The translations under genes and the position numbers were made by a program. Positions 5,401-56,900 of a stretch of 64,000 bases of DNA are shown here, piece after piece; position 1 is the first letter of the stretch, and each line of letters begins with the position of its first letter. The stretch is from Tetraselmis striata (lineage: Eukaryota > Chlorophyta > Chlorodendrophyceae > Chlorodendrales > Chlorodendraceae): the NCBI GenBank assembly GCA_006384855.1, contig VCJN01001123.1:1-64000 (forward strand), read 5' to 3'. The notes beneath the pieces are model-generated. The model did no database searches. It saw only the letters and a list, made by a program, of their open reading frames with translations, and had not been told where the DNA came from.

Positions 5401-6395
5401 TCCTGGGTTGAAGCCTAAATCGCAGCCATTATGATGGCCTCGAAGTCGGCCATGGCGACGGAAAGTCGGAAAATAGCCAATAACGCTAAAACCAAGTCGA
5501 CATGTGCTGAAACCCTACCGTAGACGTGCGCTTCCGCGGTATCACAAGAGCCGTGAGTTAGCAACAAACGCGCCGGCCCTTCGCCTTGTGGGCATCCGTG
5601 CTCTCTCTTGACCCTTTCGGAAAGGTTGGACGCCGTCTCACCTCGTCACAGAACCCAGGCTAACAATGACGGCTACCCTAGAACGTTGTACGGTTGATGA
5701 ACCGAGCTTGCGTGCAACATGTTGTGAGCCGCGCGCACCCCAACTTGTGCGCCCACTTGTTGCTGCTGACTATGGCCATGGCTCTACCATGGGTGGGTGC
5801 GGTCATTGTTGGTTGGGTGGTAGCATCGAGGGTCCATCTCCCGCCATTGTTGATCCATGTTCCCACCACTGGTCCACGATGTGGGCCCGTTCGGGTGTGG
5901 CTTTATTGGGGGTTAGTAATATCACAAATTACTACTTCCTTTGATCCCTTCCGGGACCTTCTCCATATGGATTGGATGATGTTTATCCTGATGCTTATTT
6001 CCGTACTCGTTCGGGCTGGGCGCTAGTCTGCCCCTCTCTACGTCTATTTTCGTCCCCGCCTTTTTTAATGTGCGTTTTGCACACGTACTATTGGCGACTC
6101 TATAATTAAACTGCTATATAATCCATCACTTGTCGCGCTTGCGGTGGAGGTTGTTGCAGCGAGTCTCTGTTTGCGTGCATGGTCCCTTGGGTGGCTTATT
6201 TGGCATTCTCTCTGCCGGAGTGCAGACGGCAAAGTATGATGCGTCTGCCCGTGCTCATTTCGCACCGTCTTTTGTCGCTGCTTCCACCTCACAGTTGCTG
6301 TAGTGGACGTTTCCTATTGCCTTTTCGGGTGATTTCATGATCGCCTTGTTTTAGCTTGCACATGCAACTATATCACACAACAAAAACGACAAAAC
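5401..6395. other. No gene recognised
   Basis: Only short ORFs without recognisable domains. Overlapping frames at 5666-6026 run through a low-complexity stretch rich in GTTG and CCAC words and are not convincing. Confidence 0.4.
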
Positions 6396-6594: not shown

Positions 6595-7688
6595 GGACAA
6601 AAACGCCAAAACCCTACAGGTACAGGTGTACCTGTGTAATCATTAACGTTAAAGTACTATGATTACATGAGCTAGCAGCAGAAGGCGATATCAGGAAATC
6701 ACCAAAAAAAAAGTACAATCAGAAAGGTCAAGTGCAACAGAAATTACTTGTCAAAGGAATACTGCAAAACTGAAATTATCCTTGCTTAAGTGATGGTACT
6801 CCTGCGCCTGCGTCGCGTCGCTCGTCGGCATGTGTTGCTATGACCCGGGTCATTGGCTGCAAGCGTCCTCGCCGCGGCTGATAGCCTACCCCGGGGCGGG
6901 GGTCCCTTTGGTCCCTGGCAGCTAAGTGACTTCGTGGTTCCCTTGGCTCCTTCTTGGTTCTTGGCTCCCTGTCCTCCTGCTCGACCTTGGTTTCAGGCTT
7001 ATGTCTCTCTTTTGTTGGCAACCTTTCACAGTTGAAGTTAGTTCTGTTTGTAGTGCGCTTTTGTGAAAGCCCTTATGTAATAAATAGTGATCCTTGCTTA
7101 AAACTACCAGTACCGGTACCTGTACCTTGCATCTACCTACTACTGTCAAACCACTACAGGTCTTACTATTGTCGTCCGGCGCCGGGGACGAAAAATACAT
7201 CATCGGCTCGCCGCAGTAGCGTCCGCCAACAGCAGCAAGCAGTACCCGTAGAACTACGGGCCGGCAGCAGAGCGCGCGGCGCGCCCGGCCGCCCCCCGCC
7301 CAGGGCAGGCTGGCGGCCAGTGTCCAGTAAATGCAACAGCAGCGGGGTCGACCAGGAGTCCAGGACACAGCATTTCGACAATCAGCCCCGACAACCTGGC
7401 CACCTCTGCGCGAGCCAGCCAGCCGGTGCTTGTAGCCGCAGTAACGGCAGGGGCAGCAGCACGCACGTCGCGGTTGTGCAGGCCTTGAAGGCAGGCATTC
7501 CCCGTACCTCCCTGCACCCTCCTGCGTCCGTGTTCCCCCAGCCGCGTGGCTCTCGCGGGCGCCGCAGCCCCGGCGGCTTCCGGCGCGGCTTCCGGCGCTG
7601 TCGTGTGCGTTTATCCCGATTGGTCGCTGGACGCCGCAGTAGCCGCCGCAGCCCCGTCTCCGACGAGACTGGCGAGCTGCTAGCCGTC
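6595..7688 (+). promoter_or_regulatory. Upstream/5'UTR region of the DUG fusion gene
   Basis: The region before the amidotransferase start stays open in frame from 6954 (245 codons) but looks low-complexity and GC-driven. Class II amidotransferases need cysteine directly after the initiator methionine, so translation should begin at 7689 and this segment is probably promoter and leader. No clear TATA box was identified. Confidence 0.4.
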
Positions 7689-10600
7689 ATGTGCCGCCTG
7701 CTGGGCTACATCGGTTCGCCGGCGCTTCTGGCGGAGGTCGTGCTCTGGCCGGACCGCTCCATCGTCATCCAGTCCTTCGACGCGCGCGAGCGGCTGCAGG
7801 ACCCCAACCTCCCGCACCACGTCGGCTTTGGCAACCTCAACGGCGACGGCTTCGGCATCGGCTGGTTCAGCGACTCCATCCTTCCGGATGACACCAAGCC
7901 GTGCGTCTTCACCAGCGTCACGCCCGCCTGGTAGGGAGACCCCCCCCCCCCCCCCCGCCGGCCCCTTTTCGGAAAAAAGAATGAATAAAACCCACCTCGT
8001 GGAACACCCAGGCCAGCCAGTCAGGCCGCGCAACTTGAGTAGCGCCGCTTTTCTCCGTCTCGGCGCTTGTGCGTGCGGTTATGCTGGCGCTGAGTGTACG
8101 AACAGTACGCGCCGCAGAAGCGCAGGAACGCGCATCAGGCTGCCGCGGGTATGACATGAGAATGCGGTAGGCAGGTCCCAGGGGTGGCAGCCAGAGCCCG
8201 GAAATCTCGGAACTAACCCCCCCCTCCCCCCCCTGCCCCCTGTCCCTCCGGGGTCTCCTGGGCTCGCGATGTGCTGTCCAGGAACAACGAGAACCTGAAC
8301 CGCCTGGCACTGAAGATCCGCTCGCCGCTGATGTTTGCGCACGTGCGGGCTGCGTACCCCGGCATGCCCGTCAGCGAGCAGAACTGCCACCCCTTCATGT
8401 TCAACAATTATCTCTGGATGCACAATGGGGTCATTGCCGGCTTTGCCAAGGTGCGCGCGCCCGGTGGCGGCGCTGGGTCCAGGCATCCCTCACCATGTTT
8501 ATGGCTGACGCACAGGCGGTGCGCGTTGACAGGTGCGCCGCAAGCTGGCCATGATGCTGTCGGACGAAGCGTTCAACGCCGTGCCCAGCCTCATGAACTC
8601 GGACTCGGCGATGGCGTTTGCGCTCTTTCTGAACAACCTGCCCGACATGGACAGCAATCTGCCCAGCAGCACGCTTCTGGCAGCCATAAACGTGAGCAGC
8701 TGGAGGCTGGGGGGCGGCAGGGGGTGGACGCTGCAAGGGGCTCTGCCTGCCAGGCTGACGCCAACGCAAAGAGGCTCTCCGCCGCGGGCCTTTGGCATGG
8801 CGGTACCTCTCTATGCACCGAGCACTGATATGTCAGCTTACCCACATGCAACGGCAGGCCACAATCGCGACCATCTGTGCCGCCACGGAGGAGGCAGGCG
8901 TGGTGGGCGACTCGTCACTGCTCAACTTTGTGGTGTCGGACGGGCAAACCATGATTGCCACTCGCTTCGTGAGCCGGGATGGCGCCACGCCACCGTCGCT
9001 GTACTACGCGGAGGGCTGGTCGTTTGAGAAGGTCGCCGACCATGCGGTGGACCCACCCTCTACGCCGCCAAAGGGGCCCAGCAAGCAGCCCATTGGGTAA
9101 CCCCCCTCCCTCCCCCCCTCCCCCCCAACCACACACACACACGCACACACACACACACACCTTATGGGAGCCCTGCTGTGCATATTTACATTCATGCTAC
9201 GCTACTGGAGGTTTGTTACTCGCGAATAGACAGTCTTTGTATATATCTGTATTCTTATCATTGCAATAAGAATGCCGGGGGTTTTAAGGGTTTTTCCGTA
9301 GCTGTCATGCTCATTGAGGTCATGTGGATCCCAGCATCTGGGTTTAATATTATTTACACATGGTGAAAGAGTTTCCAGATTGCTGGGGGAAGTGTGTATT
9401 ATGGGGCGGCCCCCGCTCGGACAGCATGGCCCTCACGCAGGATGCTGCTGCTGCTGCTGGGCCAGGTCCCTGTCCGGGAAGGCGGAGTACGCGCTGACGT
9501 ACGGCGCGACGGGCTCCAAGATTGTGATGGTCGCAAGCGAGCCCATCACCAAGAGCTGCACCGACTGGGTAAAGGTGCCGCCCAACACCGCGCTCGTCGT
9601 CACGCGCGAGAAGGGTGACTTCATGAACGTCGTGCGCAGCCCGCTCACCGCGTCGGGAGCGCATCCGGTGCAGGTGTGGCCAGGCTTCCGGTAGCCGCCC
9701 TGCCTGCGTGCCTGTGGCTACGGGCGCCCAGTGGGGGGGGGGGGGGGGGGGGATGAGTGGGCAGCAGGCGCACAGGGGGGCAGAGGGGCAGTCCGCTGCC
9801 CTGGGCTGGCATGATGCGAGCAAATGCGTCGCAGGATGAGATTGCGCGTTGCCTGGAGGCGGTGGCGAGCGGCCGCCGCACGGCTGGGAGGCTATGGGAG
9901 AGGCGGGAGGGCCGCACCTCAATGGCGGGGGGTGCAGACGAGCAGCTGGTGTCGCCGCGCAGGTGCGCGCGACTCTGCATTGCTTCCGGCGTGCAATCTG
10001 CTTTGGGCAATGCCAGACAGCCGATGCCTGCTACCGCGGCGATGCGGCATGGCACCTGACGACTGACTGGCTGGCTACCATGCCCCTGCTTTCCCCTGCC
10101 GGTGCATGCGCGAGCAGCCGGTACCCGGTGCCAAATGGCGCTGGCCTGCCACCGCTAACGCCCCCACCAATTCTGGTGAGTCCCTTACCACCCCCACCGT
10201 ACTCCGGGTATTGCATGGATGGCTGGGCTCAAATGCGCCCAGGGCTGCCCCAGCTTCCCCGTAGGGATCGTCCTGTATACTACTCGCTGAGTGCCCCCCC
10301 CCCCCCCCCCCCCCCCCCCTCTCGACTTCCTTTTTCCGCCAGGCGGAACCGCTGTTCCTCCCCAACCATACCGTCGTCGAGCATGATAAGCCGGCCCACA
10401 CCCTGACTGGCCACAACAGGGCGGTCACATGCCTGCTTTGCTACGGGGGGCGACTATACAGCGCCTCTGCGGATGGCTCCATCCAGGTGCGGCGCTCATT
10501 GCATATCCGTCTACAGCCCGCTCATTCGTGACATACAATACAGTGTTTTCTTCTGATGGGAGGGCCCATTCACGGTGACATGTTGCATCCCTGGCCAAGG

Positions 10601-13600
10601 CAACGCTTCGGCGTTCTGTGTGCGGGAGTCAAAGAGTCGATGTGACTGTGTGCGTCTGCGGCAGGTGTGGGAGACGCAAGACCTGCGGTGGCTGACTCGC
10701 CTCGAGGGCCACCAGAAGCCGGTCACCGATATGAAGATCATCGACGGTCGCCTGCTATCCGTCGCGGGACGCACCGCGCGGCTGTGGGACCTGAAGACGC
10801 TGGAGAATGTGCAGGTGGTGCATCTGGGGCAGCTCCTCAAGATGGGCAGCTGCAACTACACAGGCGGCGTGTGCCGTGCCATCGCTGTCAGCGACAACAA
10901 CAAACTCTTCATCGGCTCTCAGGACAGCAACGTCGCCATGTACGATACTGCCGACTGGGTCCCAGAGTCAGCGGCTGCAGCCGCTGAAGCCGACACGATC
11001 AGTGAAGTCGCCAAGGCGGTGGCGGCCTCGTTGCCCTGCGTGATGGAGCAGGAGCCCGTCAACTGCTTTGGCGGCTCCATGAGCGTCAACTCCGAAATCT
11101 GCACGGCCGACCCGAGCTTCCCGCCGCCAGCCGCCGATGGCGCTGGCTCCCACAACCACACCATTGGGCACGCAGCCGCCGTCAACGATCTGGTGACTGC
11201 GAACGGCTACCTGTACTCTTGCGGCGGCGACGCCATGATCCGTGTGCTGTGCCCAAAGACGCTGCAGACAACGGTACACATATGAGCCCCCTCTTCCCAT
11301 TCAGCCCCTGGATCCGCCATGCTGCTCAGCCAGCCACACGATCCACTCACGCCTGATTTATCCTGTCTGGAATCGGGCACGCCAGGCTTTGCCCCCATGC
11401 CTGCGCACCTCCTAGGCAGAGAACCAATGGGCCTTTCTCACACCACAGGGCCATCACTCCTCCTAGCTGGCGTCTTTGCCCTCACATCGCACTCTACCTT
11501 TGCTTAGCTCATCAATAGCTCGTGAGGGGCAGGCTACTGCCGCATGTGCCGTCACGCACTCCTTCTGACTGGTGTGTGCCTCCGGCAGGCGACGCTCCGA
11601 GGCCATCGCGGTAGCGTTCTCTGCCTGGCGGCCGCGGGAGACCTGCTGCTATCCGGAGGCCGAGACAACACCATCCGCGTTTGGGACACCGACACGCTTG
11701 CCTGTCGCCGGACGCTGCAGGGCCACAAGCATGACGTGCTCAGCCTCGCCACGCTGGGTATCTCCCCCAATCTTGACAAGAGCGGCGCGGCGCCGGTGGC
11801 TCAAGGCAGCCGCACCCCGTTTCTGTTTGCGTCTGCCTCTGCGGACGGCACCGCTCGGCTGTGGTGCAGCCGCGACTGGGTGTGCTTCCACGTCTTCACC
11901 CCCGCCGACCCGGTAGTCAACGGAATGCGCTCGCCATGGGTGACCACCAACCGGCTGGGCCACAACCCGTCGACATGCATGAACTGCTACACTGGGCTGC
12001 CCGTGGCCGCCGCCACGTCGCAGGCGCTCACCCGCCACCAGCGGTCCAGCGGCAACGGCAACGGCGGGTCACTGCCGCCCGTAGAGCGCAGCCTGCACGC
12101 GCTGAAGGGCCTGGTGCTCACGCCGCGGAGCCTGGTGGTCGCCAACATGGCGGGGCTGATCCACATCTTCCCTATGGACAGCATATATGAGCACGCCGTG
12201 AGCGAGTTCCTGAAGGCTGCCAACCATGGTAGGCGGACGCGACCCGGGCATTCTGATTATTCCTCTGCTCAAGCCACTTTGCTCAAGAGCCTAACTTCGC
12301 ATGCTGGTCGATCCTGCAGATGACAGAAAGTGGGAGACAGCGAATGCAAATGCCGCGGCGGAGAGCAAGCCCACGGCAGAGAGCAAGCCCACGAAGAAGC
12401 GCAAGTTTCTGGTCCAGGTACGTCAGTGAAGCACAGGCACTTCCTTGCCTGCAGCATTGGCACGTTCCCCTTTTTTGGCACTTTCCGTCGGCGCTGCCCA
12501 GCACGGCCTGATACAGCCCAGCTTGGTGTTTCCCGGACTATGCAGAACACAAGTGACGCGGCGCTGCTGGAGACCCTCCGTGAGCTGATCGCCATCCCGA
12601 GCGTCAGCGCTGATCAGCGGTTATCGGACGAGTGCTATCGCGGCGCAAAGTTCATCGCCAAGCAGCTCGAGACGCTCGGTACTCGCCGAACATTGCCTGG
12701 CATCCCAACGAATCGTGAACACGCCGCCTGTGACAGAGGTCACGATGCAATAATTTACCGCATGCAGACTGACACTTGGTGCATGGCGGCGTGGCAGGCG
12801 CAGAGGTGAAAATGACACAAGTTCTGGAGGGGAAGAACCCGGTGGTGATTGCCCGGCTGGGGCGCAATCCCAACGTGCCCACCGTCACGTTCTATGGCCA
12901 CTACGACGTGCAGCCCGCGCTGGAGGAAGGCTGGAAGACCAATCCCTTTGAGATGACGTCCATTGACGGCTACCTGTACGGCCGCGGCACCAGCGACAAC
13001 AAGGTCTTGCGACGCTCTCCCCACCAACAGCGACCGCTACTCACCCCACCCCTGACTTGCCGGCACATCCCCAACCGCACCCATCTAGGCGGCAGGCTGC
13101 CTGACGTTATGGTGACCCTGCGCAGGGGCCCATCCTGGGCTTCATCTTCGCTGTGAAGGAGCTCGTCGAGGAGTGCAACAGCGAGGGGCGCGACCTGCCC
13201 GTCAACTGCGCGTTTTGCCTGGAGGGCGAGGAGGAGAACGGCTCGCATGGGTTTGCCGCCACGCTGCAGGCCAACCAGCACTGGTTTGCCGGCACCAAGG
13301 TCCGCAGCTCCAGCTGCCCCTCTGTTTCATTGCTTGCAGTGTCAATGCTTGCCATATGCGTGGCACGTGTCCGGAGGGGGAGGGGGGAATTCGTGTCTGA
13401 CACAGCCATGCGGCTGCATGCTGCTGTGCTCGACGGCGCAGTGCATCGTGGTGTCCAACACGCTGTGGATTGGCGAGAACAAGCCCTGCCTGACGTACGG
13501 CATGAGGGGGCTCATCTGCCTGGATGTGCGCGTCAGTGGCCCCCAGCGGGACCTGCACTCGGGGAACGATGGCGGCGTCTTCAACGAGCCCATGGTCCGC

Positions 13601-15088
13601 ATGCCTGCTCCTCACCAAGTTTCCCCCTGCCCTGGCCCCCCTTGCCCGCCGCGTCAACTCTCCCATTCACCAACTGACAACAGTATCAGCGCGGCATCTG
13701 TAGCACTGTTGCCAATATCGCACTTGTCGCCGTCATTGGGACCCCCCCCCTTCCTCTCCTCCCTTTGTGCCGCGCCAGACACCCCTGACACTCTCTTCCG
13801 CTCGTCCCAGGTGGACCTGGTGAATGTGATTGGAACTCTGGTGGATGGGAGGAATAACATCACGGTCCCCGGCTTTGCGGATGACATTGAGGAGCACCAG
13901 GAGGACAAACAGATATGGCGCAGCATCGAGATGGTGCGCCTCCAGCGCATCCCCGCATCCCAACTCGCCGCCTCCAGTCGAGCCATCCGCGAGTGGCCAT
14001 GCCAGTGATGTGTTGTGCGGTGTGATTGCTGACCCCAATTGCTGACCCGCATTGCTCTCTGTGCCGCTCTTGTCAAATAAGGCGGACGAGTTCAACATCC
14101 GCCGCTACAAGGAGCACCTCGGCGTGCCCGCCCTGAAGGAGATGCGCTCCACCGGCGACCTGCTGTACGAGCGCTGGTGCATTCCGTCCCTGTCCATTGT
14201 GGACATCCGCGCAGGTGGGGCCACCTGCCTCATGTCGCCGCCATCATTGACGCCACCGGCCTCGTGTGGATACGGCACCACGTCCCGGGTAGCGCTCACA
14301 GCCTGCTGCCGATCGCCCTCGCAGGGGACATTGCGAACGAGGAAGTGGAGAAGGAGAAGAACGGCTGCTATCGCTTTGGCCCCACCCGCTTCTCCGTCAT
14401 CCCGCACTGCGCGGTCGGCAAGATCAGCATCCGCTTTGTCCCCAAGCAGGACGCCGAGACTCTGGTGTCATGCGTGCAGGTACCCGCCACCGCCACCACC
14501 CCAAGCTCCTTCCCAATCCACACCACGCGTAGGCAGTTGCGTTGCCTCCTGACTAACGGTGCTGATTCCCGTCGCCGCCATCGCCGCAGAGCCACCTGCA
14601 GCACGAGTTTGCAAAGCTGCGCACGTCCAACAAGCTGGAAGTGCGGCTGATCCACTCGGGAGACTGGTGGGAGGCGGACACTGCGGGGCAGTTGTTCAAC
14701 ATTGCAGACATGGCCATCGAGCGGGAGTGGGGGCAGCGCCCGCTGCATGTCAGGTGCGGCAACATCGGCGCATGTGTCAGCGCCCCGCATGTTTGATGGT
14801 TGCGAAAGAGCTATTTGAGGATGATGCTGCTGGCTGCGAAAGCCGTTAATACATGCGGTGGATGAGCTGTGTCGCTGGTGACCTGTTCGCCTCAGGGAGG
14901 GCGGCACCATGCCTATGGTCGCCACCCTGGAGAAGATCCTGAAGGCGCCGGCAATCCTGTTGCCGTTTGGCCAATCGTCCGACAACCCTCACCTGGAGAA
15001 CGAGCGCATCCGCGGCATGAACCTCATGCGCGGCAAGAACATGATAAAGCACTTCCTGGAGGAGGTGGCGGAGAAGCTCAGCCCGTGA
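7689..15088 (+). CDS. DUG3-DUG2 fusion: class II glutamine amidotransferase + WD40 + M20 peptidase domain
   Basis: Predicted single-chain glutathione-degrading enzyme. Exons: 7689-7930, 8282-8450, 8533-8691, 8858-9096, 9466-9673, 9835-9861 (donor uncertain), 9963-10175, 10343-10486, 10665-11273, 11589-12228, 12320-12417, 12546-12678, 12798-13003, 13126-13299, 13442-13594, 13811-13933, 14082-14214, 14325-14479, 14590-14753, 14896-15088. They join in phase to 4,182 nt, 1,393 residues. Residues 1-339 are DUG3-like: MCRLLGY with nucleophile Cys2, NGDGFGIGW, FAHVRAA, NCHPF, MHNG and SDSAMAFALFL. About 80 linker residues follow. WD40-type repeats (TGHNRAVTCL, LEGHQKPVTDM, LRGHRGSVLCL, LQGHKHDVLSL) span about 420-900 and end in a basic KKRK. 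The remainder is M20: GHYDVQP, GRGTSDNKGP, EGEEENGS, SGPQRDLHSG and a late SSDNPHLENE. Yeast Dug2 is WD40+M20 and partners the separate Dug3 to cleave the gamma-glutamyl bond. No internal terminator or new start is visible between the parts. Confidence 0.88.
9131..9162. repeat. (AC)n microsatellite
   Basis: A near-perfect AC dinucleotide run with one GC interruption lies inside intron 4 of the DUG fusion gene, just after a C-rich run. Confidence 0.9.
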
Positions 15089-16274
15089 GGCCCGGGGAAA
15101 CATGCACCAGAAGATTCGATCGATTCCGGATGGAGTATACAATGCTGTCTTGTGACGGGTAGACGGGAGCCAGATGGCCTATGTGTGGTCACTTTGAAAC
15201 GCATGTCGCCGCAGTGCGTCACCGCGCTGTATTTTAAGCACAGTTTTGGCGGTCAAGCATGTCAGGATAATTACAAGCCGGGTATCAGCTCCGAAAAAGG
15301 CAAAAAAATTGCTGGACAGCGAGAGATGTCGAACACATATATCCTCAGGCCTATGTTATAAACACGGATACTGGCTGCCTGAGGCGGGCCGAGGACCACG
15401 CCACGGGACTGAGAGAAGTACGGATGGCCCCTACACACCTCCTTGTCCGAGCAGAGGGAGGGGGCGTGACGCCTGGGTAGAGATTGATCCAGGGACCTGA
15501 GCACATCGAGTCTGGTATCATGCAATCATGCGCACTTAGGCCTTGAAATCGGAAGTTTGATTGCCGGGAACCATGTGTTGGTAGCGGAGCGGTAAAGTAA
15601 GTAATCAATATAGCGGCCGGATGGGCGTAGCCTAGTTATTATTATGTGGCGCGATGGCTGACCGGAAACGCCGCGTTCTGGGATGGATCAGCGACTAAAG
15701 CCATTCATTTAAAGTTCACTAATCATATAGCCGCTTTCGCGGCCCAAGCAGGCGCGCGATGCTGCAATTGTGAGGTGATATGCTGGCGTGATGAGCATGA
15801 CTGAGGGTCCAATTACGACATTACATTTCCAGTGGTGTGCAATTTAATGACCACTATATAAATAATATAGAAACCGGAGGCAGCGCTCTGGGAAGACAAC
15901 ATATTCCAATAACGTTGACGCTGCTATAGTTATAGTACATGGCTGTCTTTCCTAGTACCTTAATAAGGGAGAAGACAGGGTAATCAACCTACTATGGGTA
16001 TCTACCCTAATACTGCAAGTAAGCCCCCCCCCCCCCCCCTTTCGGAAATGGCAGCTTGCGGTTATTTTCATTATTTTAGGTCATTTTCATTTTCATCCAT
16101 AAGGATGGATGGTGCAACATAGCGGCAAGATGTAAATTCCGGGCTGACGCCGGCCATGCTGACGAGTGCGGCATCAGCTAGTACCCTAATGTGAACGCGT
16201 CCTGCGACGTCACACACTGCCGATGGATCAGCAGACCATAAGCAAAATGAATAAGATTAAACGCGTGGCCTCTT
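15089..16274. other. Intergenic region between convergent genes
   Basis: No gene is visible. The DUG fusion ends on its left and the amidohydrolase ends on its right, so it should hold both 3' ends. TGTAA, the chlorophyte poly(A) motif, occurs on the plus strand near 16,131 and TTACA (minus-strand TGTAA) near 15,821, but both are far from the stops. A 17-C run lies near 16,023. Confidence 0.5.
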
Positions 16275-19142
16275 TCAGAAGGTGTGAGCACTGTTGAACG
16301 CCCACTGGAAAGGGCCAAACGAGGGACTGCCGGGCGACTTGTAGAGGACACCTCCCTTCCAGACGTGCGTCACCATGGAGGCGTCCGCAATGACGCTGAT
16401 GTTGACGAGCGGGTTGCCGGAGAGCGCAATAACATCCGCTTCGTAGCCCGCCTTGAGTTGCCCTGAGCGAGGGGCCAAGCCCAGGCGGCCCAGGCAGAGG
16501 GGGGCGTTGCCTGTCGCGGTCTCGATCGCCGCCAGCGGCTCCATGCCGTAGAACTCCTTCAGTGTGGCCACCTCGCTGCCGACCTGGGCGCATCCGTGCC
16601 TGCATGCAAGGCATCGCACCATCAGCATAGAGGCAAGGGCTGCTGACCACCCGGGCCAACGAAGCCAGGGGCTCACGCTTGCATCACGTTGACCAGTACC
16701 ACAGAGTCAAATCACACTCCACTCCGAGGCAAGGGAAGCTTAACATAGGGGGGGGGGGCAAGTCGCTCTGAGCGGGGTCCCCGTAGGCAAGTGGGCAAGC
16801 GGCTCAGAGAGGAGAAGGAGGGGTGGGGGGGGGGGGGGGGGGGGAGAGAAAGGTTGTGATGCGAGCATGAGGTCTCGGGATCATGAGAGGAGCCGCGGCG
16901 GTGTTCTACTGCACGCAGGGCGGGGCTCACGGGGAGTCGGTCCCGGCCACGATGGTCACGCCTGCCTTGATGGCGCGCTGCACCGCCTTGTGGTGGTCGC
17001 CCAGCAGCGACTTGCCCTTCCTCCATGAGACGTCCGGGATGTTGGGAGGCCGCTCGGTAGCGTTGAACACTTGCGTGACAGTGCACGTCGGGACGTAGAT
17101 CAGGCCTTTCTCCTTGATCTGGGAGGCCTGGTCCTCGCTCATGGAGGAGCCATGCTCGATGGAGAACACACCTGCGCAAAGCGGGGCAAGCGTCATCGTG
17201 AAAGCGACTCCGCAGCGGTCGCCCTGCCGTGACGGCATGACGAGCCATTGCCTGGGAGGCGAGCTATGGTGGACGGTGCGGGAAGACGTACCGGCGTCGA
17301 TGGCGGCCTGGATGCCCCCGCGGCTGTGCGCATGCGCCGCGACGATCCTCCGCGCGCGCGCCGCCTCTTGCACCATCGCAGCGATCTCCCCGTGGCTGAA
17401 CTGGTCGTCGCTCACTTGGTCGTAGAGCGACAGCACCCCGCCCGATGTCATCACCTGCGCCATCGCAACAACATCCCCACCCCTTTTCACTCCTGCGGCA
17501 CAGGTCTCCCCAGACTCATGGCAGATTAACGTGTTCCGAGTGTTCCGAGTCCGCCAACCGCTGCCAGCCGCGCGGCCGGACCTTGATGACGTCCGCCTGC
17601 AGCCGCATGTTGGCGCGCACTGCCTGGAGGCACTCGGGGACCCCGTCGCACATGACCCCGTATGACTCGTAGCTGGAGCCAGCGACAACGCTCAGAGGCA
17701 GGTTGTGCTCGTCTGTGTGCCCCCCCGTCATGCCGATCATGTGCCCTGCGTACTATGAGGCCGAGTTGAGCGAGGGTGAGGAGCCCCCCCCTTGACAGGC
17801 ATGACCCAGGCTGGCCCCTTCACACGTCCCGACCCCGCAGCAAGCGCCTGGGATCCTCAGGGGGCATGGCGGCCTACATGGAAGTTTGGACCCTCCACCT
17901 CCCCGCTGGTGATGAGCCTATGGAGGGCTTGCGAGAAAAACCCGCCGAGCTCCCGGACACTCGTGACTCCCGCGTGCCTGGCACAGACACACCCCATGTG
18001 AGGAGCGCCCTGGCCGGAGCAATCAGCAAGCCGCCCGGCAGGAGCTCGCTGACATTGACATGATGGAATATCAAGTGGCCGGTGGTAGTAGTGGGGGGGG
18101 GGGGGGGGGAGGGGGGGCGTACAGGGCTTCCTTGAGCTGCTTGAGAGCGGTGGCGAAATGAATGTATTTCTGAGGGGCAATGGCGGGCGGAGCGAGGGAT
18201 GAAGGAGTAATGGAGGTGGGGCAGAGGGGGCGGGATTAGCGGCGCATATCCCGAGGTGCTACACGGGGGAGGAGCCGAGGTGTCCCCGTGGCTCGCAGGC
18301 ACGCAAGCCACGCATTCACCAGCTGCCAGGTCTCCAATGCGCCGGGGGCGTTGTCATCCCGTCATATGTGGCGCTGCGTGGAGTGACGGCCAGGGAGAAG
18401 GAGCCGCCCCCTCACCTCTGGGGAGTAGCCCTGTACCAGCTCCATGCCAGGCGTGCCCTGGCCGAAGAAGTGAGTGTGGCAGTCCCAGAGCCCCGGCATC
18501 ACCACCTCCACCTGGGGGCACCCCGGGGAGCTCAGTACCCCCCGCCCGTGTGGCCAACTTGGGTGACACGCCTTGCGGGGTCTGCAACCCGCCTCACCTC
18601 GATCACCGACTCCTTGATACCATCGGCCGGCAGGGGGGCGTCCTCCTGTGCTCCAGCGTACTCGATCGTGCCGCCCTGCCAGACAGGCCGACCCCGCAGT
18701 ATACGTTTAGCGTATCTTCGCCGACCAGCCGACTGACACTACGTGCGCGTGTGGAATGAATAACTCGGATGCCAGTTACGGCGCGCAGTGCTATCGCGAG
18801 GGACGCACTGGCAGATCGGGGCGGTCTGACCTTGATGAGCACGACCCCGGGCCCGTTGATCGGCGGACCCCGCCCCGGGATCAGCACAAGCGCCTTGATT
18901 CTGGTCACCGGGGGCTCCGACTCAGCGCAGGTGTCGCGGGGTGAGGCGAGGGAGGAGTTGTTATTGGCAGCGCTGCTGACGGTGTGAGCGGGGGGCTGCT
19001 CTGGAGACCGGGCGGCAGCCTCGAATTGATGCCCCGGCTTCACCAGCAAGTCGGCGGCTCCGTTGCGAGCTGCGACGAGAATGATGGTCGAGCAAAGCAG
19101 CACGGCGGCTATGATTATCGACCGGACGCCTTTCGGAGACAT
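16275..19142 (-). CDS. Metal-dependent amidohydrolase (imidazolonepropionase/prolidase-like) with N-terminal anchor or signal
   Basis: Exons in transcription order: 19142-18831, 18732-18598, 18511-18416, 18169-18123, 17977-17878, 17752-17582, 17454-17292, 17171-16931, 16599-16275. They join in frame to 529 residues. The start is followed by a basic then hydrophobic segment (VRSIIIAAVLLCSTIILVAA), a signal peptide or anchor, and a Ser/Ala-rich stretch. The Amidohydro_1 fold then appears in order: MPGLWDCHTHF (HxH metal ligands), AGVTSVRELGG, TGGHTDEHNLP, AHAHSRGG, SIEHGS, AGTDSP (metal Asp) and a C-terminal AGYEADVIAL hairpin. All expected metal ligands are present. The order matches secreted or membrane amidohydrolases that cleave Xaa-Pro dipeptides or related amides; the substrate cannot be told. 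Exon 2 could start six bases earlier at another AG. It is convergent with the DUG fusion. Confidence 0.87.
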
Positions 19143-50643: not shown

Positions 50644-52110
50644 TTGTCGTACTGTACCCAAACCCATCACCCGGCCCGGGCCGCCCGCTCGCGGGGTCGC
50701 TCGCCTTTCGGCTTCTTGGCCCGGTATACGGAGCTCCGCGGGCGCCGGGCGGAGCTCCCAGGACGAGGCGGCCGAACGGATGGCTCGCAGAAGCAGCTGC
50801 GTACCGTTGCGTTGGCCACCGGCGAGGCGCTGAGCGACGGCGACGTCAGCCCGGGCCCCGAGCTAGCCGAGCGACCGGAGCTGAAGGCGAACCGGCGGCG
50901 GTCGGTGGCGGATCAGCTTGGCGCCATCGCCAAGGGACCGGGGGGCGGGTCGCAAGGCCCACAAGCAGCTCTCACGACGAGGCGGTCAAAGATGGCGCAG
51001 GAGCAGCTGCATACCGGCGTGCCTGCGGGTGCGGCGCTGAGTGGCGGCATTGGCAGCCCCAGCGTCGAGGTCCTCACCGAGCGGCCGGAGCTTACGGCGG
51101 ACGAGTGGCAGGCGGTTGCGGAGCAGCTAGGGGCCACGGAGGGTGGGGGCAGCTGGAGCGGGGTGCTGCGACACGTCTGCACGGCGGCGCGCGAGGGCGT
51201 GGGCGGCGCGGCCGGCACATGCCGGATGGATCCGCGCGATTTCGCAGCAAGGTGGGAGCTGCTGGCGTGGGCGGCGGCGCAGACCTGCCCTCTGGTGGAC
51301 GACGAGCGAGTGCGCGAGGCGGCGGTGGAGAGAGGCGGGCTGGAGGCGATCCGGTGGGGAGTGGAGTCGCGCCGCTGGACGCTGTCCTCGAAGATCTGCG
51401 AGTGGGCGGCGATTGCGGGGCGGCTGCCGGTGCTGCAGTGGGCGAGGGCGTGGGGCTGCAATTGGGGCGAAAGGACCTTCGCTGCGGCCGCCCAGGGCGG
51501 GTGTCTGGAGGTGCTGCGGTGGATGAGGGCGCAGGGCTGCCCCTGGAACGAGTGGACTTGCGCCATGGCAGCCCAGGAAGGCCACCTTGACGTTCTGCAG
51601 TGGGCGAGGGAGCAGGGCTGTCCCTGGGACGAAGTCACCTGCGCCGAGGCTGCCGGAGAAGGAAACTTGGAGGTGTTGCAGTGGGCGCGGGCGCAGGGCT
51701 GCCCCTGGGATGCGCGCACCTGTTTGCGGGCGGCTGGGGGAGGGCATGTCGAGCTGCTGCAGTGGGCGAGGGCACAGGGCTGCCCCTGGGACGACCGAAC
51801 GTGCTTCTGGGCTGCCAAGGGAGGGCACCTAGCGGCGTTGCAGTGGGCGAGGGCGCAAGGCTGCCCCTGGGACGAATCGACCACCTTTGGCGCAGCTAGG
51901 GGAGGCCATCTTGAGGTGCTGCAGTGGGCGTGCAGGCAGGGCTGCCACTGCGATGAGTGGACCTGCATCGGGGCGGCTCAGGGGGGGCACCTTGGGGTAC
52001 TCCAGTGGCTGAGGGCGCACGGCTGCGTCTGGGATACGGTAGCCTGCACCTGGGCCGCACATAGTCATCCACGTCTTGCGGAATGGATCGAGGCAAACCG
52101 GCGCCGCTGA
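50644..52110 (+). CDS. Ankyrin-like repeat protein, 27-residue unit, intact
   Basis: Open single exon of 488 codons. An alternative start at 50992 (AAGATGGCG, 372 residues) is attractive because a degenerate copy of the following segment lies upstream. The N-terminal module LTADEWQAVAEQLG then SWSGVLRHVCTAAREG is shared with the gene at 61,195 and may be F-box-like. A degraded duplicate (LSDGDVSPGPELAERPEL then VADQLGAIA) precedes it. About ten repeats follow with the consensus GHLEVLQWARAQGCPWDERT C..AA. The period is 27 residues, not the usual 33. Such proteins are predicted scaffolds for protein contacts; the partner is unknown. Long reading frames on the opposite strand are shadows. No introns needed. 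Confidence 0.8.
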   Translation: MSYCTQTHHPARAARSRGRSPFGFLARYTELRGRRAELPGRGGRTDGSQKQLRTVALATGEALSDGDVSPGPELAERPELKANRRRSVADQLGAIAKGPGGGSQGPQAALTTRRSKMAQEQLHTGVPAGAALSGGIGSPSVEVLTERPELTADEWQAVAEQLGATEGGGSWSGVLRHVCTAAREGVGGAAGTCRMDPRDFAARWELLAWAAAQTCPLVDDERVREAAVERGGLEAIRWGVESRRWTLSSKICEWAAIAGRLPVLQWARAWGCNWGERTFAAAAQGGCLEVLRWMRAQGCPWNEWTCAMAAQEGHLDVLQWAREQGCPWDEVTCAEAAGEGNLEVLQWARAQGCPWDARTCLRAAGGGHVELLQWARAQGCPWDDRTCFWAAKGGHLAALQWARAQGCPWDESTTFGAARGGHLEVLQWACRQGCHCDEWTCIGAAQGGHLGVLQWLRAHGCVWDTVACTWAAHSHPRLAEWIEANRRR

Positions 52111-52369
52111 ATCTGTCCTGGGAATACTTGTATGAACAGTTGCAGCAAGTACGCACTTCATACATGTCGAGGATCGGCGCATCCGTTGGACAATCCGCTG
52201 ATCATCACTGGCTTCCAGATGCTATAGGATCTGCAACCCTGGGCAATCGGAACTTGATTTCTGCTTGTCAAGCAGATGCAAGATCCATAATCTGGCCGGC
52301 CAGCGGCCAACAAGCGGCGCCGTGTGACAACCCTCACGGTGTCTTGGTGACCACCACCATCACTTTTGC

Positions 52370-53660
52370 CACTTTTCCCATCGGCCTCACCACCATCATC
52401 ACCACCCTCACCCTCGCAGTTATCACTGCCATCACCATTACGATCACCACCACCCCCACCACCATCACCCTCAGCTTCACCGTCGTTACCGCCATCGCCA
52501 TCACCATTAGGCGCATCCTCTCGCTCACCCCCGGCACTACCGTCACCGTCACCACCTTCACCCTCACCAACACCACTCCCATCACCACCGTCATCACCAC
52601 CACTACCATCATCACCATCACATTCACCCTCTCGCTCACCCCCAGCACTACCGTCACCGTCACCACCTTCACCCTCACCAACACCACTCCCATCACCACC
52701 ACTACCATCATCACCATAACATTCACCCTCTCGCTCACCCCCAGCACTACCGTCACCGTCACCACCTTCACCCTCACCAACACCACTCCCATCACCACTA
52801 CCATCATCACCATAACATTCACCCTCTCGCTCACCCCCAGCACTACCGTCACCGTCACCACCTTCACCCTCACCAACACCACTCCCATCACCACCGTCAT
52901 CACCACCACTACCATCATCACCATCACATTCACCCTCTCGCTCACCCCCAGCACTACCGTCACCGTCACCACCTTCACCCTCACCAACACCACTCCCATC
53001 ACCACCACTACCATCATCACCATAACATTCACCCTCTCGCTCACCCCCAGCACTACCGTCACCGTCACCACCTTCACCCTCACCAACACCACTCCCATCA
53101 CCACCACTACCATCATCACCATAACATTCACCCTCTCGCTCACCCCCAGCACTACCGTCACCGTCACCACCTTCACCCTCACCAACACCACTCCCATCAC
53201 CACCGTCATCACCACCACTACCATCATCACCATCACATTCACCCTCTCGCTCACCCCCAGCACTACCGTCACCGTCACCACCTTCACCCTCACCAACACC
53301 ACTCCCATCACCACCACTACCATCATCACCATAACATTCACCCTCTCGCTCACCCCCAGCACTACCGTCACCGTCACCACCTTCACCCTCACCAACACCA
53401 CTCCCATCACCACTACCATCATCACCATAACATTCACCCTCTCGCTCACCCCCAGCACTACCGTCACCGTCACCACCTTCACCCTCACCAACACCACTCC
53501 CATCACCACCGTCATCACCACCACTACCATCATCACCATCACATTCACCCTCTCGCTCACCCCCAGCACTACCGTCACCGTCACCACCTTCACCCTCACC
53601 ATCATCACTCCCATCACCACCCTCCCCCTCAGCACCACTATCCGCATGATGATGATCATC
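52370..53660. repeat. Minisatellite with higher-order L-M-S organisation
   Basis: Eleven CACCAT/CACCGTC-rich units of three lengths, about 114 (L), 99 (M) and 96 bp (S), differ only at the CATCACCACC...ATCATCACCATAAC end. From about 52,514 the order is L M S L M M L M S L plus a variant last unit, giving a trimer period of about 310 bp. All unit lengths are multiples of three, so the array stays open in several frames: Thr/Ile-rich on plus, and Gly/Asp/Glu-rich or Val/Met-rich on minus. The upstream 140 bp (52,370-52,510) is a diverged version. Coding status is unresolved. Confidence 0.9.
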
Positions 53661-53784
53661 ATCATCAGCGAGCATCAACATCCGCAGAAGGTAGTAGAGG
53701 CTGATACTACCTACTGTTGCACGTTGCCACTGCCGATGTGGCTGTGGCCACTGACACACAAAAGCACAGCGATCACGAGCTTGA

Positions 53785-53789
53785 TTACA
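53785..53789 (-). promoter_or_regulatory. TGTAA poly(A) signal of the carboxypeptidase gene
   Basis: TTACA on the plus strand (TGTAA on the minus strand) lies about 180 bp past the stop of the carboxypeptidase gene, the spacing expected for the chlorophyte signal. Confidence 0.5.
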
Positions 53790-53968
53790 CCATTCACGCC
53801 CAATGGCAGGCTAATCCATGATGGCTTCATACTCGACGAGATGCCCCGCCTATAGACGGGCCCTTTTGGTCGCATCCCGCACACAGGAAAGCGGGGGGCG
53901 TCAAGTCCCGGCTGAGCCCACCGCCGACGTTCCCGGGATCAGATGAAACACCCCTCTCGAGGAGATGC

Positions 53969-56900
53969 TCAGAGAGGGTCTCCATTGATGAACTTGATGA
54001 TGAGGTCAAAGGCGCGCTGAGGCTGGGTGTATGGCACCATGTGCCCCGCGCCGCGCACCGTGGCAAAAGTGAGGCCCTGCGTGAATTTCTGTCGCAGGAT
54101 GGGGCGAGGCCGGCTCAGGGGGGGAAACCGCCAGAAGGGGGGGGGGGGGGGGGAAGACGGCCTGGAAGGTGCTTTGCATGTAAATGATTCGCGGTCACAG
54201 GGCTGGGCATGACACGATGTGGGAATCACCTCGGTCCAGCCTGCAACCTGTCCGTCGAGGGAGGAGGTCCAGGGTCGCCACGGCTCCGTGACCTCCAGGC
54301 CCAGCGCCTCCACCCAGTTACGTGTGCCAACCTGCGGGGGAGGAGCAGCAGACCGGCCCCACGCGTGAGCGGTGCACAACCAGCCAGCTCCAGACACGGG
54401 GCTTCTCCGCTCACGGGGTACTGGTGCGATTTTATTGGGCTGGCGGGTCCCCACACCAGTGGGTTAGTTCACCACATCGCGTCCAGAATTCAGTGGCGCG
54501 ATCGTGGTTTACTCTGACGTTTAGTTGAGTTGCGTTTCCCTCGGGGTGTGTGCGCATGTGTGTGTGTGTGTGTGGGGGTCAAAAACAATAACAGTGCACA
54601 AACTCAAAGCACAGCGGGCCTTACCAGGGGAAGGATGGCGTCGATGTCCCCGCTGTACACCTATCGGCAAAGCGAAAAACGTCAAGGCCATGCCGGTGGT
54701 TCCCACGCGTGCGTGCGGCAGTGTGTGCGCACTTCCTGCACGGCCGCCCGCCCTTCACAGGACAGCAAGCAGGGGTCACGCCGCAGCGGCCGACGCGCAC
54801 CAGGATGCGGATGCCCTTCTGCAGCAGCCGCTCGTAGGTGGGCATCATGCTGGACAGCAGGTCGGCGCGCGAGTAGACCAGGCGCGGCGCGTCCGCGCAA
54901 TCCGCCCACGCGTACGGCAGCATCCCACTGACGTTGGCGTGGATCGCCGCCTGGGCACAGGGACAGCGGGACATGATGAGACAGGCCAGGGCAGGGCATG
55001 CACCCCAGGCCGGCTGCCAATCCGCCGGCTGCTCGCCAGAGAGCGGAGCCTTGGCTGTTCTGCCGCACCTGCACCTCCGGCCGGTTGAAGTACTGCTCCA
55101 CCTCGTTGTCCACGCAGGGGTCGTACTTGCTGGAGTCGGCACCCGAGACTGCGGCACAGCCCCATGTTGAGTGCCATCAGTACGGTGCCCCCATCAGGCT
55201 GTGCGCACATCTCTTGTTGTGGCGGGAGAGGCAGGGAAGGGGGAGGGTGTGCCACGCACCAGGGCCCTTGGCCTTGGACAGCAGGTGCTTCTGGCTGAGA
55301 AGGCCGAGCGTGGGGCCGCGGGCAGCGACTCGGGCCATTGCCTGTGTGACTGCCTCCACCTTGGGCAGGCAGACGTCGGCAAAGATGTCGTAGATGTTGA
55401 TGTTGCCCACTGGGGCAACAGATGGCAGTCAAGGGGATGGGGGGGGGGGGGGGGGGGGGGGTTCAGCACCCAGAACGGGGGCAGCTGCAAGGGTGTGACG
55501 AACCAGTAGGGTGGCAAGGGAGGGGATGCCGGGGACCAGAGGGCGGGAAGGAACTCACTCTCACGGAATGAGTCGTTGACAAAGCCATCGCAAAGGTCCG
55601 GATCCGGCTCAGTACCCGTGCCCTGTTGCATTGGGCAAGCACGCACAGATTCTCAGCGTGGCAGAGTGACAAATGTGCCTGCCTCTGACTTGCATGGCAG
55701 CCGACGGGGTCACGGCGGGGAGGGTATGCCGCACTCCTGGTACAGAGGCGCAGCTACATGGGGAGACTGGACGGGTGGGCTGGTGGGTTGGCTTGCGGGG
55801 AGGCTACCGTGTTGCTGGCAAGCAGCGGGCCGATGGTGTTGAAGTCGCAGTACTTGCTGATACCCTGCGCCAAACGAACGGCAAGGCGTGCAGTGAGTGG
55901 TCACTGCCTCAGCGGGGACAAGCCTGCGGAAGGGCCCTGACTGCCCCGCACTGCGTAGAGTGCATGCGTAAGGCCAAGCAGGCTGAGGGGCACCATCAGC
56001 TGAGGGGAGGGATAAAAAGAGGGGGTGGGGGTGGGGGGGGGGGGGGGGAGCGACCTCGAAAGTGGCGGTGGAGATGATGCCGTGTGTGTACCAGAACTCC
56101 AGCGCGCCACGGTTGTCGATGGCCGTATCTGTTAGGGGATTGCCTGGGGCCCACGCCAACAGAGTGGCAATAGCCACACCAGTCAGTCTCATCAGCGCCT
56201 TGCAATCGCGAGTCACCAAGGCTGCGGGTGGCAGGCGGTGCCATTCATGGCCGTAAGAGCGCACCCGCCATGAAGCCCTGCAGGTTCAGCTTTGGGTTGA
56301 TGCCAGCCTCGTTGCCCTGCCAGGGGCAGCGACACAGAGCATCAGCATTGCCATCGCAACCGGGGTCAGTGCTGAAGAAGCCTGGAAAGGGGCCCGCGCA
56401 GGCCTGTCTGGCAGAGCGCGGGCCGCACCTTGATGATGGCGTCCGTGAGGCCGGGCACGTAGTGTCCGCCGTAAGACTCCCCCGAGATCCACAGCGGCCG
56501 GCCCGCCAGATCGGGGAAGCGCTCCATGATGCCCAGCAGGAAAAGATACGAGTCATCAGCGGTGCGCTCATCGCCTGAAGCAGCCGGGGCGCACTGTCAG
56601 AGCTGGCGTTTGAGGAGGCACGGCAGAGCTCAGGCGCCTGAGCATGCAAGCAGGAGGCAGAGTGGTGGTTGTGTGTGTGTGTGTGTGTGTGTGCGGCGGG
56701 GGGGGGGGCGGGGGGGGGGGGCTCTCACCAACCACCCCATCGCTGGTGGTGTTGGAGTAGCTAAAGCCGACAAAGGCTGGGCTTTCCAGGAAGATGACGG
56801 TAGCCTACATAGCCACACACATTGCGCGCACCGCTGAGCAATGATCCCGCTGGGCGGGGGGGGGGGGGGGGGTGATCATTACGGTCGTGTGCGGGCAGCA

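Follow-up and report, generated by a model that had tools for sequence, protein, structure and literature searches.

The window analysed here, a 64,000-nt stretch of Tetraselmis striata contig VCJN01001123.1, carries on its forward strand a single gene (7689–15088) that joins a Dug3-like class II amidotransferase to a WD40 β-propeller and a Dug2-like M20 domain. The gene comprises 20 exons and 19 GT-AG introns in a single frame throughout, from the ATG at 7689 to the TGA at 15086–15088, with a coding sequence (CDS) of 4,128 nt including the stop and a product of 1,375 amino acids (aa). Exons 1 to 5 (7689–7930, 8282–8450, 8533–8691, 8858–9096, and 9466–9673) encode the amidotransferase, aa 1–339, and exons 6 and 7 (9835–9962 and 10118–10175) a linker, aa 340–401. 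The propeller, aa ~415–868, is encoded by exons 8 to 10 (10343–10486, 10665–11273, and 11589–12228), followed by a short linker, aa 866–898, in exon 11 (12320–12417). The M20 domain, aa 899–1375, begins in exons 12 to 16 (12546–12678, 12798–13003, 13126–13299, 13442–13594, and 13811–13933) and is completed by exons 17 to 20 (14082–14214, 14325–14479, 14590–14753, and 14896–15088). Pfam detects GATase_4 at 42.9 bits (PF13230, curated cut-off of 23 bits), WD40 at 98.5, and Peptidase_M20 at 83.5, each over its cut-off, and the last two stand in the WD40-then-M20 order of the Dug2 layout. The exon model and Pfam thus confirm the coordinates, the 20 in-phase exons, and the domain order proposed in an earlier note on this DNA, whose CDS length of 4,182 nt looks like a slip.

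Since the intron lengths cover all three classes modulo 3, the frame is not a single long one kept by chance. An in-frame stop lies upstream at 6927, with no in-frame ATG between 6927 and 7689; MCR is therefore the first in-frame start, and Cys2 would be exposed once the methionine is removed. The forward strand from 7500 to 16130 lacks TGTAA, the green-algal polyadenylation signal; intron 1 contains an AATAAA at 7984. The earlier note had held that no stop, start, or polyadenylation site separates the parts, and this stands for stops and for TGTAA. For starts it does not hold strictly: Met472 sits within the WD40 part, and the forward-strand ATG of Met369 (9922–9924, exon 6) is the sole in-frame one found between amidotransferase and propeller, so that translation of the latter could begin separately only there. 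None of nine aligned homologs has a methionine in this column, in an alignment read by eye.

Contig C2722 carries another copy of this region, collinear with the window and 96.8% identical over 11.1 kb. All 20 exons are in frame there, with no indels in the 4,128-nt CDS and 38 of 38 splice dinucleotides intact. The two coding sequences differ at 36 bases and 4 amino acids (nonsynonymous divergence [dN], 0.0013; synonymous divergence [dS], 0.033), and exons are more alike (99.1%) than introns (96.9%). The linker, aa 336–414, is likewise in frame, with 2 amino acid changes in 79 codons. Given so few protein changes and an intact frame and splice sites, constraint covers every part of the gene, although more weakly in the linker. 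Apart from the gene, the C2722 copy holds ~8 kb of extra DNA between its matches to window positions 5620–5966 and 5973–6380; this difference near 5970 is an insertion or deletion between the copies.

The least conserved exons, 7 and 11, are both linkers. In the nine-homolog alignment, the best identity is 30% for exon 7, with gaps in at least four of the homologs, and 18% for exon 11. The first part of the exon 6–7 linker (DEIARCLEAV) can nevertheless be aligned to other green-algal fusions, and across 86 fusions the linker varies from 23 to 268 residues (median, 68.5). Poor conservation of exons 6, 7, and 11, together with Met369, could suggest that the exon chain has merged two neighbouring genes or two transcripts. 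We consider this extremely improbable: the linker exons are in frame in the C2722 copy, TGTAA is absent within the gene, and homologs elsewhere show the same continuity. The headers of seven full fusions mark them as transcript assemblies (P0074, P0129, P0130, P0133, P0148, P0157, and P0167), and in other homologs a single frame nearly fills its contig: P0015 (1,397 aa) has one frame of 4,194 nt in a longest contig of 4,279 nt (98%), and the values for P0040 and P0153 are 97% and 94%. Such homologs answer much of the question of complementary DNA (cDNA), in species other than that of the window. An assembly or exon-chaining artefact is ruled out by the C2722 copy and the single-contig homologs, which also bear out the proposal of a genuine one-chain fusion, amidotransferase first, under strong constraint.

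How widespread is this arrangement? Three database searches gave 200, 148, and 5,451 matches; the best 120 of each were fetched, yielding 288 distinct proteins. Together with the window product they make 289 sequences, which were scored with profiles built from 15 fusions, a domain being called at >60% of the profile and >60 bits. Full three-domain fusions account for 107 of the 289, that is, the window protein and 106 others among the matches listed, and the order amidotransferase, WD40, M20 holds in all 107. The remaining patterns are WD40 plus M20 (30), amidotransferase plus WD40 (13), amidotransferase alone (121, including truncated models of algal proteins), and other or none (18). The green algae with full fusions include Bryopsis, Raphidocelis, Coccomyxa, Myrmecia, Chlorella, Auxenochlorella, Scenedesmus, Trebouxia, Chlamydomonas, Volvox, Pleodorina, Elliptochloris, Prototheca, Picochlorum, Pedinophyceae, Chloropicon, and Cymbomonas. 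Full fusions also occur in the streptophytes Chara and Closterium, the red algae Gracilaria and Cyanidium, the amoebozoan Planoprotostelium, and unnamed transcriptomes; further rows we take, by locus-tag style alone, to be Mesostigma, Chlorokybus, and Spirogloea. The matches listed, many of which lack species names, include none labelled as a land plant or animal. A search for other algae with both domains in one chain, as the earlier note had advised, thus finds many, and the green-algal relatives among these matches have one gene, not always two as would speak against a fusion. A fusion peculiar to the Tetraselmis genome is excluded by the 107 full fusions, and the supposed local novelty goes with it.

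In named fungal rows, Dug2 and Dug3 are separate proteins. A standalone Dug3-like transcript (P0279) and Dug2-like proteins (P0096 and P0083, the latter perhaps cut) fall outside the clear fungal clade, so that the two-gene state may exist in eukaryotes besides fungi. Volvox africanus has, besides its full fusion P0020, a protein (P0082) with WD40 and a partial M20 and no amidotransferase. P0160, labelled Batrachochytrium salamandrivorans BASA81, is a full fusion that shares a branch of ~2.2 changes per column with P0159; it is either a contaminant or a very fast-evolving relative, and we do not rely on it.

The amidotransferase of the window has the full class II set of residues: Cys2, Arg103, Asn129-Gly130, and Asp161. 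Asn129, Gly130, and Asp161 are present in 107/107 fusions and Arg103 in 104, the remaining 3 being gaps. Cys2 is found in 72 of the 107, where the 35 gaps are late-starting or cut models; 67 models begin with MC. With the amidotransferase first in every fusion, the order is consistent with the argument of the earlier note that the fusion would leave the cysteine free and fix a 1:1 stoichiometry. Residues 1–241 match PDB entry 3mdn at 97.3 bits, and the amidotransferase matches EgtC, an amidohydrolase of ergothioneine synthesis, at 48.9 bits. Identity with EgtC was rejected given this lower score and the fusion to WD40 and M20, EgtC being a standalone protein. In a structure search with the model of a homolog (P0044), whose matches scarcely reach the amidotransferase part (residues 1–341), residues 342–642 match WD40 propellers and the M20 fold matches Dug1. 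Dug1 is named among the PDB matches listed, and Dug2 is not.

Dug3-related amidotransferases of ~300 aa stand alone in a wide range of bacteria, among them Legionella, Streptomyces, and Acidobacteria (L012–L091). Within the fetched flanks of the 80 best loci kept, from at least 577 confirmed stretches, neither WD40 nor M20 was found at any (0/80), several loci reaching contig ends; a bacterial origin of a ready-made fusion finds no support here. In the Tetraselmis genome, a search with the amidotransferase recovered the window and C2722 copies, plus one intronless match (38%) on C2159, where a G+C content of 0.67 around the match suggests a bacterial contig. Seemingly intronless M20 or amidotransferase frames also occur in stretches of C1610, C2159, and C731 (L096, L097, and L098; G+C, 0.65 to 0.67), perhaps from associated bacteria; the frame on C731 is interrupted by an internal stop.

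The earlier note described the M20 domain as complete, which is true of its fold and not of its active site. We tied M20 columns to CN2 and Dug1 by alignment and use CN2 numbering and residue roles (metal ligands; E166 as general base) below. The window protein keeps the equivalents of H99, D101, D132, E166, E167, H228, R343, and H445. At D195, a metal-ligand Asp, it has Asn1075, which breaks the full set of five metal ligands and a general base of Dug1 and CN2. The same loss runs through the fusions: D195 is N in 100, S in 6, and D in 1 of the 107. The other positions are better kept (H99, D101, and H228 in 107/107; D132 and E167 in 106; H445 in 103; R343 in 100), except for the general base E166, which is retained in only 65 and lost in 42. 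The 22 rows with a Dug2-type protein on its own (20 named fungi, P0096, and P0105) have N at D195 in 21 cases and L in the other, and all of them retain E166. This common loss of D195 ties the fusion to Dug2 rather than Dug1, and it makes the M20 part look like a scaffold. The conservation of H228 in every fusion is suggestive only of an M20-mediated dimer.

A complete degradosome, as first proposed for this gene, would require the M20 domain still to split Cys-Gly, so that one chain yields three amino acids from glutathione. The eight retained residues of the window protein and the Dug1-like fold of the homolog model speak for such an enzyme. Against it, the window protein has Asn at D195, all but one of the 107 fusions have N or S there, and 42 have no E166. 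In addition, the genome has, on C764, a separate M20 dipeptidase-type gene that keeps the metal-ligand Asp and matches in separate pieces, as if intron-bearing. We therefore regard a complete degradosome as very unlikely; since the M20 domain lacks an Asp present in Dug1 and CN2, a different enzyme is probably required to cleave Cys-Gly.

Working from the gene structure, conservation, order, and residue losses, and inferring the substrate, the dimer, and the WD40 contact, we think it likely that the product is a whole (Dug2-Dug3)-type gamma-glutamyl amidohydrolase in one chain. In such an enzyme, methionine removal would free Cys2 of the N-terminal amidotransferase, which would attack glutathione, and probably related gamma-glutamyl peptides, at the gamma-glutamyl bond, releasing Cys-Gly first and then glutamate. 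The propeller would hold the amidotransferase from inside the same chain, as it binds Dug3 in yeast, and the M20 part, a catalytically degraded dipeptidase, would act as a dimer scaffold. Yeast Dug2p reportedly lacks peptidase activity, dimerizes via its M20 domain, and binds Dug3p via WD40. The working unit would thus be a homodimer equivalent to yeast (Dug2-Dug3)2, with Cys-Gly split by a separate dipeptidase.

Several points weigh against this proposal. Glutathione is assumed to be the substrate by analogy with yeast. The window M20 keeps the general-base Glu and 4 of 5 metal ligands, and its presumed inactivity rests on one substitution. The amidotransferase fold serves another gamma-glutamyl substrate too, as the EgtC match illustrates, and three ChaC-family matches in the genome, on contigs that may be algal or bacterial, could degrade glutathione instead. 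An enzyme with the same one-chain layout might then act mainly on another gamma-glutamyl compound (dipeptides or conjugates) or in gamma-glutamyl transfer. The other route that ChaC proteins may give glutathione would fit this alternative, as does the yeast complex: (Dug2p-Dug3p)2 moves the gamma-glutamyl group from glutathione to valine and Val-Gly (PMC6508711) and Dug2p-Dug3p takes part in the use of gamma-Glu-Met (PMC7617739). The sequence, however, gives no pointer to another substrate, the conserved residues being those of the amidotransferase family, and we consider this alternative rather unlikely.

To examine the history of the fusion, we built trees from its parts. Rooted on bacteria, the amidotransferase tree (73 rows) places the eukaryotic rows on one side (support, 100/98); fungal Dug3 forms a clade (100/100), and green and streptophyte algae group with two unnamed rows (99/94). 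The M20 tree (58 rows) separates Dug2-type from Dug1/CN2 sequences (100/100) and unites the streptophyte rows (100/99). In a concatenated tree (36 rows; 1,066 columns), green and streptophyte algae form a clade (100/99), so the fusion is no younger than the green lineage. Within this clade, the window protein groups with the core chlorophytes Bryopsis, Scenedesmus, Chlorella, Coccomyxa, and Myrmecia (95/88), to the exclusion of the Pedinophyceae row; in the M20 tree alone, it is next to that row (88/76).

Two histories may explain the distribution of the one-chain and two-protein forms. First, the fungal pair could be original and the one-chain form a later, single fusion event, to which we give an even chance. 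The concatenated tree favors it by placing the fusions together (91/83, not starred) and fungi outside; the WD40-plus-M20 tree unites the fusions as well (68/86), and the standalone transcript P0279 exists outside the fungal clade. Deepest among the concatenated fusions are the amoebozoan and one unnamed row. These trees can, however, be explained by one change in either direction, 2 of the 4 concatenated fungal rows combine halves from different species, and the single-gene trees give no resolution: approximately unbiased (AU) tests reject neither a single clade of fusions (p = 0.418 for the amidotransferase and 0.25 for M20) nor one of separate Dug2 proteins (p = 0.187, M20). Alternatively, the one-chain enzyme may be the ancestral eukaryotic form, older than the divergence between amoebozoans, opisthokonts, and plant-algal lineages, with the fungal Dug2/Dug3 pair a product of fission. 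We consider this somewhat less likely than not. In the eukaryote species tree, fungi lie between amoebozoans and algal lineages, both fusion-bearing, which counts for fission and against a single fusion; the position of fungi outside the fusions counts against it. A grouping of fungi with P0129, P0130, P0157, and P0074 in the concatenation is ruled out (p = 9.5e−28), and P0074 is near fungi in the M20 tree alone (86/78). The header style of these four resembles that of choanoflagellate transcriptomes, which they may be; if so, the rejected grouping counts against simple vertical descent with fission.

Elsewhere in the window, a reverse-strand frame ending near 16.26 kb (16200–17600) is a neighbouring gene on the opposite strand, in which we take one stretch to resemble the C-terminal part of amidohydrolase-family enzymes. 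The 2-kb block at 52001–54000, probably a strand-biased repeat, has a GC skew of −0.546, a value that no other part of the window approaches.

Several of the sources consulted place this enzyme in fungi. In one report, which describes gamma-glutamyl transfer, the Dug2-Dug3 complex belongs to a fungal-specific pathway (PMC6508711); one abstract calls the DUG pathway fungus-specific (PMC9012958), and one introduction describes the Dug2-Dug3 enzyme or pathway as fungal-specific (PMC7214794). A term search of the main text of a plant review with two glutathione breakdown pathways did not find DUG (PMC8464934), and a Euglena study lists one transcript contig for "GSH degradosome proteins" (PMC6351624). 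No description of a fused Dug3-Dug2 form was found in the literature covered, most subscription papers, the primary DUG papers included, falling outside its scope.

If it works as proposed, the one-chain enzyme would give green, streptophyte, and red algae a hitherto unrecognised way to recycle glutathione and sulfur. The ChaC route passes through 5-oxoproline, and a Dug2-Dug3 route would not. Some fusion rows bear the names "Cys-Gly metallodipeptidase DUG1", "Cndp1", or "Glutamine amidotransferase type-2 domain-containing"; the first two are misleading, and some database names would need correction. The gene would also offer a single expressible unit in which to study how amidotransferase, propeller, and degraded M20 work together. 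Should the fission history be true, the "fungi-specific" pathway would in fact be widespread among eukaryotes, with losses in land plants and animals and a split into two genes in fungi.

Among known systems, the bacterial GATase_4-type enzymes (3mdn, EgtC) share with the fusion the N-terminal Cys and the Arg/Asn/Gly/Asp set, but they are standalone, with a median frame of 299 aa. The Dug1/CNDP2 Cys-Gly and carnosine dipeptidases (M20A) have a metal-ligand Asp that 106 of the 107 fusions have exchanged and a general base that 42 have lost; the fusion M20 is, moreover, joined to two other domains and lies on a separate branch (100/100). Both halves of the fusion group instead with fungal Dug3 and Dug2, away from bacterial amidotransferases and Dug1/CN2, and the separate Dug2-type proteins have lost the same Asp (22/22 rows). 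The modules are those of yeast (Dug2p-Dug3p)2: class II amidotransferase, WD40, and M20. Unlike the yeast complex of two assembling proteins, the fusion is one polypeptide. It occurs in an amoebozoan and in algae of the green, streptophyte, and red groups; in the named fungal rows the two halves are separate. On the sequence evidence, the gene is best described as a one-chain variant of the Dug2-Dug3 enzyme, apparently ancient and widespread outside fungi.

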